From: an uncultured Opitutia bacterium | GTDB taxonomy: Bacteria > Verrucomicrobiota > Verrucomicrobiia > Opitutales > Opitutaceae | Assembly (NCBI GenBank): GCA_903827245.1 | Contig: CAIKHO010000047.1 | Location: 1-53,788, forward strand | Length of the DNA stretch: 53,788 bases | Reading direction: 5' to 3' | Shown here: one piece after another, positions 25,007 to 27,325 of the stretch | Layout: every line of letters starts with the position of its first letter | Position numbering within the stretch: position 1 is the first letter of the stretch | Position numbers and translations under genes: made by a program | The notes under the pieces: generated by a model | What the model saw: the letters and a program-made list of their open reading frames with translations, nothing else | Told to the model about the DNA's origin: nothing | Databases searched by the model: none

Positions 25007-27325
25007 TTAAACTGCGGCCAAGATGTCGTTAAGCGTCTTGCTTGGTCGCAACGCGGCGGAAGCCTTCTTGTCGTCGGGCTGATAATAGCCGCCGATGTCG
25101 GTCGGTTTTCCCTGGACGGCGATCATCTCAGCGACGATCTGCTTTTCGGCAGCGGTGAGTTTTTCGGCGACGGGCGTGAAAATAGTCGAGAGCTGAGAGT
25201 CGAGCGTCTGTTTAGCCAGCGCCTGGGCCCAGTAGAGGGCGAGGTAGAAATGGCTGCCGCGGTTGTCGATGCCCGCGCCGACTTTGCGGGCGGGGGACTT
25301 GTCGTTCTCCAGGAACTTGCCGTTGGCTTCGTCGAGGGTCTCGGCGAGGACTTTCGCCTTCGCGTGGTTTTGCGTGATGCCAAGGTGCTCGAACGAGGCG
25401 GCCAGGGCAAAAAACTCGCCGAGTGAGTCCCAGCGGAGGAAGTTTTCCTCGGTGAACTGCTGCACGTGCTTCGGCGCGGAGCCGCCGGCGCCGGTTTCGA
25501 AGAGGCCGCCGCCGTTCATCAGGGGGACGATCGAGAGCATCTTCGCGCTCGTGCCGACCTCGAGGATCGGGAAGAGGTCGGTGAGGTAGTCGCGCAGGAC
25601 GTTGCCCGTGACGCTGATCGTATCGAGGCCGGCCTTCAGGCGCTCGAGCGTGGCGAGGCAGGCGGCGGCGGGCGGGAGGATCTTGATGTCGAGTCCCTTG
25701 GTGTCGTGCTGGGCGAGGTAGGTCTTCACCTTCGCAATGATCTGGGCGTCATGGGCGCGTTTTTCGTCGAGCCAGAAGATGGCGGGCATTCCGGAGAGGC
25801 GGGCTCGGCTGACGGCGAGTTTTACCCAGTCTTGGACGGGAGCATCTTTCGTCTGACACGCTCTCCAGATGTCGCCGGTCTCTACTTGGTGCTCCATCAA
25901 GATATCAGGTGTAGCCGGGGTCGTTGACCCCGGACCGGCCTCAGCGACGCCGGCTACATTGGGAACCACAACCACGCGAATGGTGCCGTTGCCGGGGGCG
26001 ACGAAGGTTTTGTTGTGGCTGCCGTATTCCTCGGCGGCCTGGGCCATGAGGCCCACGTTGGGGACGGTACCCATGGTCTTGGGGTCGAAGGCGCCGTTTT
26101 TCTTGCAGAAGTCGATCGTAGTCGCGTAGACGCCGGCGTAGCAGCTGTCGGGAATGACGCACAGCGTGTCCTGGCCCTTGCCCTGGGCGTTCCACATCTG
26201 CCCGGACGTGCGGATCATCGCGGGCATGGAGGCGTCGATGATGACGTCGCTGGGGACGTTGAGATTGGTGATGCCCTTGTCGGAGTTGACCATCGCGACG
26301 GCCGGGCGGGAGGCATAGATGGCGGTGATGTCGGCCTCGATCGCGGCGCGCTGGTCGGCGGGGAGGGTCTGGATCTTGCCGAGGAGGTCGCCGAAGCCGT
26401 TGTTCAGGTCGACGCCGAGCGTGGCGAGGGTGGCGGCGTGCTTGGTGAACAGATCCTTGAAGAAGACGCGGACGCACAGGCCGAACATGACGGGGTCGGA
26501 GACCTTCATCATGGTGGCCTTGAGGTGGACCGAGAAGAGGACGCCGTCCTTCTTGGCCTTGATCATCTGCTGGGCGAAGAAGGCGCCGAGGGCCTTCCGG
26601 TTCATGAAAGTGGCGTCGAGGATTTCGCCGGCTTTGAGCGGGGTCTTTTCCTTGAGGACGATGGTCTGTCCGGCCTTCGCGACAGCTTCGGCGGATGCGC
26701 CGGCCGGCGCAGGGGCAGGAACGAACTCAATGCGCACAGTCGTTGCAGCCGGCACCGTCACCGACTTCTCGTTGGAGAAAAAATCATCATGCCCCATCGT
26801 GCTGACGCTCGTCTTTGAGGTCGGGGACCACGCGCCCATGGAGTGGGGGTGCTTGCGGGCGTATTCCTTGACGGCTTTCGGGGCGCGGCGGTCGGAGTTG
26901 CCCTCGCGGAGGACCGGGTTGACGGCGGAGCCCAGAACCTTCGAGTAGCGGGCCTTGGTGTCCTTTTCGGCGTCGGTCGCGGGATTCTCGGGGAAGTCAG
27001 GGAGCTTGTAGCCCTTTTTCTGCAGCTCGGCGATGGCAGCCTTTAGCTGCGGGATGGAGGCGCTGATGTTGGGGAGCTTGATGATGTTGGCCTCGGGCTT
27101 GAGCGTGAGGGCGCCGAGCTCCGCGAGGGCGTCGGGGACGCGCTGGTCGGGCGGGAGCAGGTCCGAGAATGTCGCGAGGATGCGACCGGCGAGGGAGATG
27201 TCGCGCGACTCGACGGCGATGCCGGCGTGCTTGGTGAACGCCTGGATGATCGGCAGGAGCGAATAGGTGGCGAGCGCGGGGGCCTCGTCGGTCTTGGTGT
27301 AGATGATGGTAGGGGAGGCGGGCAT
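25007..27325 (-). CDS. icd: NADP-dependent isocitrate dehydrogenase, monomeric type
   Basis: A 772-residue monomeric isocitrate dehydrogenase, which converts isocitrate to 2-oxoglutarate and CO2 in the TCA cycle. Family blocks are present throughout: [20 protein letters not shown] at the start, [20 protein letters not shown] (130-149), [53 protein letters not shown] and [16 protein letters not shown]. Usual length is about 740. The excess comes from two insertions: residues 457-472 ([16 protein letters not shown]), encoded exactly by a 49-base palindromic repeat that also occurs outside genes, and an Ala/Pro-rich insert near 203-220 over a 16-base perfect palindrome. Both fall in variable loops between conserved blocks, so the enzyme is probably active. 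Confidence 0.93.
25910..25958. repeat. 49-base palindromic repeat inserted in frame in icd
   Basis: Two 24-base arms (25910-25933 and 25935-25958) match at 20 of 24 positions around one central base. Reversed, it is 46/49 identical to the intergenic element at 38977-39025. In icd it covers the last base of codon 456 to the end of codon 472 without disturbing the frame. Confidence 0.88.

Follow-up and report, generated by a model that had tools for sequence, protein, structure and literature searches.

GTAG-tagged REPs within genes have been known in Verrucomicrobiota since 2013: the available text of Di Nocera et al. (PMC3733652) places them most commonly in Opitutus terrae, both uvrA genes of which are included. 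The O. terrae repeats GTAG-17 and GTAG-19 are inverted dimers separated by 1 to 2 bp, and in the portions of that paper at hand, Xanthomonas recB is the only gene noted to be hit at about the same place in two species. Genomes that lack a RAYT are mentioned both there and in the available parts of PMC8049555. In-frame palindromic repeats of conserved genes are also described as Rickettsia palindromic elements (RPE), for which the accessible text of the review PMC2229807 gives lengths of 105 to 146 bp and reports that a Rickettsia guanylate kinase carrying an RPE insert is active with an altered substrate affinity. The intragenic Rickettsia conorii repeats RPE-4 and RPE-6 are treated in the available text of PMC3733652 as REPs of the CGTC class, not the GTAG class. 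Heptanucleotide tandem repeats form a separate kind; in Xanthomonas and Nostoc they consist of G-rich GGGAATC or GGGGAYT units that are dispersed and in some cases intragenic (PMC4692102, as far as its text was available).

The window, that is, the whole 53,788-nucleotide stretch of DNA that was analyzed, comes from an uncultured Opitutia bacterium and contains two copies of a short palindromic element, one of them translated within the gene for isocitrate dehydrogenase (IDH). The features are the following:

25007 to 27325, minus strand: icd, monomeric IDH of 772 amino acids, an open reading frame (ORF) of 772 codons that matches PF03971 at 1254.6 bits, 1itw at an E value of 0, and other solved IDHs
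25910 to 25958, read on the minus strand: REP dimer of 49 bp (REPIN-like), residues 457 to 472 of icd
25911 to 25933, plus strand: first REP half, GTAG plus hairpin
25935 to 25957, minus strand: second REP half, inverted and separated from the first by 1 base (25934)
38977 to 39025: second copy of the icd element, between convergent called genes at 37432 to 38943 (plus strand) and 39048 to 40946 (minus strand)

The 49 bases of the icd element start at the last base of codon 456 and finish at codon 472, as a preliminary description of this DNA had it, and they add 16 residues in frame, read through without the stop or frameshift whose absence had been claimed. The same description saw a palindrome of two 24-base arms around a single base. 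The element is indeed palindromic, but its arms are not clean, with pairing at 20 of 24 positions, and it is better described as two inverted 23-base hairpins with a 1-base spacer, each made up of GTAG and 8-base arms with at least 7 of 8 positions paired. Folded as single-stranded DNA, positions 25905 to 25963 of the minus strand give −18.1 kcal/mol (z, −3.88). The intergenic copy at 38977 to 39025 is identical in reverse complement at 46 of 49 positions, precisely as first reported.

The palindrome score of the icd element is by itself unexceptional, since two other places in the window, 4044 to 4092 and 12094 to 12142, reach 20 and 21 arm pairs out of 24. These imperfect palindromes, both situated between called genes, differ in sequence from the REP family and are possible terminators or other repeats. 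Such similar scores would suit a palindrome that arose by chance in a GC-rich gene, an origin that has virtually no probability here: copies of the same sequence occur throughout the genome, and shuffles of the window give none. It is the repeat family, and not the palindrome score, that rules out chance. When up to 3 mismatches are allowed, a 47-base pattern detects two elements in the window, each on both strands, and zero in 100 shuffles of it. In the source genome (G000; 3.55 Mb in 91 contigs, 97% complete), a search with the element returned 42 matches at E values up to 10, about half of which span most of the element, and REP halves with at most one mismatch number 51 (25 plus 26) versus 3 for a backwards control. 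The inverted REP pairs examined in this genome number 23 (22 from the element search and 1 found separately), a count from which lone REPs and REP matches of long spacing or irregular form (C12, C44, C66, C16, and C46) were left out. The relative G005 has 207 REP halves, its copies being 94 to 96% identical to the query at the best places. We examined 44 elements in G005 and 36 in G031, which are samples and not full sets; two of the sampled G005 regions (lpd and recD2) were chosen because of the corresponding genes in the source genome. The preliminary description took the element for a mobile repeat, and this reading holds: further copies are many in the source genome and occur also in relatives, and the residues did not prove to be shared by relatives in nonpalindromic DNA.

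Called genes hold 6 of the 23 REP pairs of the source genome, and the other 17 lie outside called genes. The gene caller was a simple codon-usage script trained on the window, and some of the ORFs it called are unlikely to be genes; one of the six pairs (L023, at C84:11297) is near the start of a called ORF with no Pfam match and, being doubtful, was excluded. Recognizable genes with an in-frame REPIN thus account for 5 of the 23 pairs: icd, uvrA, recD2, lpd (dihydrolipoamide dehydrogenase), and a gene for a WD40 protein. All five copies encode VAG...PAT, in the phase that almost never contains a stop. When GTA is read as a codon, 46 of the 46 strand readings of the 23 elements are open, and the peptide is VAGVADPGPGSASPAT or close to it, rich in Gly, Pro, Ala, and Ser whichever orientation the element has; the other two phases, open in 4 and 14 of 46 readings, are closed by the TAG in GTAG and by a TGA in the loop. 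The codon frame of other in-gene copies, which the preliminary description had singled out as a check, follows suit, with 30 of 32 copies within called genes of three genomes in the GTA-codon phase (6 of 6 in the source genome, L023 included; 18 of 20 in G005; and 6 of 6 in G031). A filter against stop codons would by itself produce most of this bias, since 46 of the 64 phase readings that are open in the source genome belong to phase 0. Net length changes at the genic sites are exclusively in frame.

To place the icd insert among its relatives, we assembled 81 icd genes, comprising that of the window and the best 80 of 475 relatives (GTDB genomes). The stretch at the insertion site is 25 residues long in 61 of the 81 genes and longer in 20, among which 2 contain REPINs, 14 contain period-7 repeats, and 4 others fail the lag-7 test described below. 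Alignment with close relatives, another of the checks named at the outset, finds the insert absent from G002, a member of the same genus and, of the genomes searched that have a full icd, the closest one; its icd is 91% identical, 9 residues shorter at the site, and without a REPIN. In this comparison, the rows L071, L074, and L084 are motif-anchored readings in place of antisense ones. Near relatives carry other lengthened loops at this site, which mask the preinsertion sequence. When aligned with solved IDHs (1itw and one more), the inserted residues mostly lie opposite gaps, without counterpart, in line with the claim that they separate blocks nearly adjacent in known monomeric IDHs. A structure model of the enzyme, with a middling mean pLDDT of 75.4 and 1itw as its best PDB match, gives a pLDDT below 50 to residues 457 to 470, between strands 447 to 453 and 475 to 481, and the insert, which the preliminary description suggested modeling as a surface loop, is predicted to form the tip of a beta hairpin.

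Heptanucleotide tandem repeats are read in frame in the icd loop after residue 453 (loci of L123 to L202). Across the 20 lengthened loops, self-match averages 0.46 at lag 7 and 0.42 at lag 14, and 0.21 to 0.32 at other lags from 2 to 15. A loop passed the lag-7 test when fewer than 5% of its letter shuffles scored as high; 14 of the 20 pass, the two REPIN loops not among them. The heptad units differ between genomes, and two of the 14 (L131 and L133) are near copies. Lag-7 tracts number 7 in the 134 kb of the window and loci of the source genome, 9 in 113 kb of G005, and 7 in 58 kb of icd loci with longer loops, a set that was selected for those loops; in all three sets, lag 7 tops every other lag from 5 to 14. 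G031 has no lag-7 excess (3 tracts at lag 7 and 4 at lag 6), and the 48 loci L155 to L202, 45 of which have short loops, contain a single lag-7 tract in 237 kb. Five of the seven tracts from the source genome are in called genes, including the REPIN-bearing uvrA (L015) and WD40 gene (L018). One heptad pattern matches 12 times in the source genome, 16 times in G003, and 64 times in G031, with no match there for its backwards control; the same pattern is absent from 7 of 13 genomes, G002 and G032 included, whose icd loops hold other heptads. These repeats resemble those of Xanthomonas and Nostoc in being dispersed, of period 7, and in part intragenic, but in place of the G-rich units described in the accessible text of PMC4692102, the icd loops hold many different heptads. 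The icd hairpin tip tolerates quite different repeat DNA, and its use by unrelated heptad repeats points to tolerance.

Each of the five in-gene sites of the source genome is also occupied by a REPIN in at least one other lineage. The icd site has one in L149, an icd that is 82% identical to that of the window and far from it in the tree; the uvrA site is occupied in G005 and G025, and the lpd site is occupied in G005. The recD2 site is occupied in G024, in G005, whose longer insert includes at least two REPs, and in G025 (L235), where the contig stops within the REP, which nhmmer failed to score as a complete element. The WD40 gene has its insert at the same site in the source genome and in G005. 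G005, G024, and G025 represent other genera of the same family, and in one further gene, common to G005 and G031, inserts occur in matching context. G002, of the same genus as the source genome, has none of the four inserts for which it was tested (icd, uvrA, lpd, and recD2). Among 18 aligned uvrA genes, the insert is present in those of the source genome, G005, and G025, and the other 15 align there without gaps and with no difference in length. Element boundaries differ between genera.

Gene trees built without the loop place the REPIN-bearing icd, uvrA, and recD2 genes beside REPIN-less ones. The REPINs of the source genome and L149 require two changes in the icd tree, forced by well-supported branches; three changes are forced in the uvrA tree, three in the recD2 tree without the cut-off G025 gene and four with it, and one in the lpd tree, the best version of which needs two. 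The counts cover gains and losses alike, as the tree tool itself cautions, and L254 and L236, second pieces of genes already included, were omitted from the uvrA, recD2, and lpd trees. On this basis, a single shared insertion per gene is rejected for icd, uvrA, and recD2, lpd lying outside this result. The icd copies of the source genome and L149 score 0.918 (47 of 49 bases). Ranked against pairs between the source genome and G005, this similarity is in the top 3%, and that of the uvrA copies of the source genome and G005 is in the top 9%; the ranks are 25% for lpd, 25% for recD2 against G024, and 98% for uvrA against G025. Because same-site copies in different genomes are sometimes quite alike, short-tract exchange between genomes at shared sites may be entertained from the sequences. 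Two REPINs occupy separate positions in recD2 of G024 (L221), and another lies in a called ORF close to lpd of the same genome (L214).

RAYT genes flanked by such REPs were found in two relatives: that of G005 (L293; G005:C1:2529700-2531900) lies between REPs of the icd-element family, and that of G012 (L340; G012:C170:65000-67800) lies between REPs one mismatch from it. Both exceed the cut-off of NF047646 (NCBIfam, REP-associated tyrosine transposase). These were the only 2 of 32 loci around Y1 transposase genes of relatives to contain REP pairs, L341 and L347 having one REP-like match each, and in a second set of 20 such loci, REP pairs occurred only in L352 and L354, which overlap L293 and L340. 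Searches with PF01797 and with the RAYT protein of a relative found no RAYT in the source genome or in G024, which has REPINs. The absence from the source genome may be real, given that the assembly is 97% complete, and the copies there may be stranded, since a RAYT is seen in two relatives and none was found alongside them.

Apart from a RAYT in the same genome, every feature tested places the icd element in the class of GTAG REP dimers, or REPINs. The element has GTAG at the end of a short stem-loop, a close inverted pair with a 1-base spacer, and many dispersed copies; a cognate RAYT flanked by the same REPs was not found in G000, an absence compatible with membership because PMC3733652 and PMC8049555, in the text available, both speak of RAYT-less genomes. 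The likeness to the GTAG REP dimers of O. terrae, as the accessible text of PMC3733652 presents them, extends to the GTAG end, the short stem-loop, the close inverted dimers, and in-gene copies that include uvrA, whereas icd, lpd, and the WD40 gene go unnamed there, Additional file 3 apart. With the REPINs and RAYTs of Bertels and Rainey (2011; PMC3116915) and of PMC8049555, our case shares, so far as the available text of those papers goes, a dispersed inverted REP pair and, in two relatives, a RAYT between such REPs. It departs from them in that REPs are described there as mainly extragenic, whereas here 5 of 23 pairs are in recognizable genes of a genome with no RAYT found. The in-frame position inside five conserved genes, as read from sequence, recalls RPE. 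Membership in RPE was nevertheless rejected on length (49 bp versus 105 to 146 bp in the available text of PMC2229807) and on tag (GTAG versus the CGTC of RPE-4 and RPE-6 in that of PMC3733652); it is the published descriptions that set the two apart, and shorter RPE families may exist. The preliminary description had proposed a gene-inserting palindrome of Verrucomicrobiota comparable to that of Rickettsia. Its dispersed, in-frame repeat stands, but not as a new analogue of RPE, given the fit to a GTAG REP/REPIN class that, by the available text of PMC3733652, was published in 2013.

The icd insert is very probably a copy of a GTAG-tagged REPIN that spread as a nonautonomous element and survived, after selection, in frame in a tolerant loop. 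Comparison among copies suggests that the element is mobile, and a RAYT-type HUH/Y1 transposase is the inferred agent by which the REP dimer would have been moved. Insertions would land widely, with gene-breaking ones removed by selection. One phase on either strand, that with a GTA codon, is stop-free and gives a small peptide rich in Gly, Pro, Ala, and Ser, probably with no function of its own. In-gene copies that survive would then be those in frame and in loops that tolerate extra residues, which for IDH is the predicted tip of a beta hairpin, and the same loops would be struck again in other lineages. These data are best read as scattered insertions that selection has confined to a few permissive loops. 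We further consider it somewhat probable that a few loops in housekeeping proteins of Opitutaceae are recurrent landing sites, entered in frame and independently by REPINs in icd, uvrA, recD2, lpd, and the WD40 gene and by heptads as well in the icd tip.

Occupation of the same sites in several genera could also mean that the in-gene copies are old, with one ancestral REPIN insertion per site kept in a few lineages and cleanly lost in most. The 47 of 49 bases shared by the icd copies of the source genome and L149 would agree with such an origin, which we nonetheless regard as quite unlikely in view of the lack of all four tested inserts in G002 of the same genus, the trees that set REPIN-bearing icd, uvrA, and recD2 next to REPIN-less genes, and the varying boundaries between genera. 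For uvrA, moreover, loss would need many clean events, because all 15 insert-less genes are ungapped and of equal length at the site.

The striking reuse of sites might instead reflect directed insertion, in which the RAYT or the target DNA favors certain sequences or structures and sites are hit regardless of the tolerance of the protein. In this connection, eight REPIN-less recD2 genes (L219, L223, L224, L226, L227, L231, L233, and L234) have PAGVANPLPGSA or close variants exactly at the REPIN site, which agree with the REPIN peptide at 7 to 9 of 12 positions; recD2 apart, a scan of 338,115 windows of called ORFs, overlapping loci among them, gave no match of 8 of 12 at any place without a REP. 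The recD2 peptide may be an eroded old REP or a resemblance of the target. Directed insertion is nevertheless unlikely: the flanks of 176 element ends have no clear motif beyond the T of TGTAG (2.09 bits, with 0.27 bits or less elsewhere), by which a strong target motif is rejected; the empty uvrA and icd sites contain nothing REP-like; and the unrelated heptanucleotide repeats in the same icd loop speak for tolerance. Very unlikely, in turn, is an adaptive insert, with the 16 residues selected for a function in IDH such as stability, regulation, or partner binding. It has no direct support beyond the lengthening of the loop in 20 of 81 genes, and it is opposed by the wide variation in loop length and content among near relatives, by nearly the same peptide in unrelated proteins, and by the very low model confidence for the segment.

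Mobile repeats supply amino acids to core enzymes here, in a lineage that can be traced across many genera, and the repeated hits to the same loops bring within direct reach the question of whether entry points are set by the tolerance of the protein or by the preference of the transposase. If there are indeed recurrent landing sites, protein insertions would be predictable, repeats would be a standing source of new loop sequence, and an eroded REP in recD2 may already be fixed across genera as PAGVANPLPGSA. There is also a caution for annotators and phylogeneticists: a peptide that marks one lineage of a conserved protein can stem from repeat DNA. As far as the literature was searched, the icd insert, the extent of loop reuse across lineages, and the use of a single loop by both REPINs and heptads were not found in print and are new; nothing recognized as the same case emerged from the literature on heptanucleotide repeats in Verrucomicrobia, heptameric repeats in coding DNA, or palindromes in isocitrate dehydrogenase.

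A second icd loop, near residue 205, likewise contains repeat-like sequence. In L147, the loop has the peptide VAGVADPDL, which is like a REP half, but its DNA is without an exact GTAGCCGG; in G031 (gene L138/L308), the loop near residue 205 contains a REPIN.
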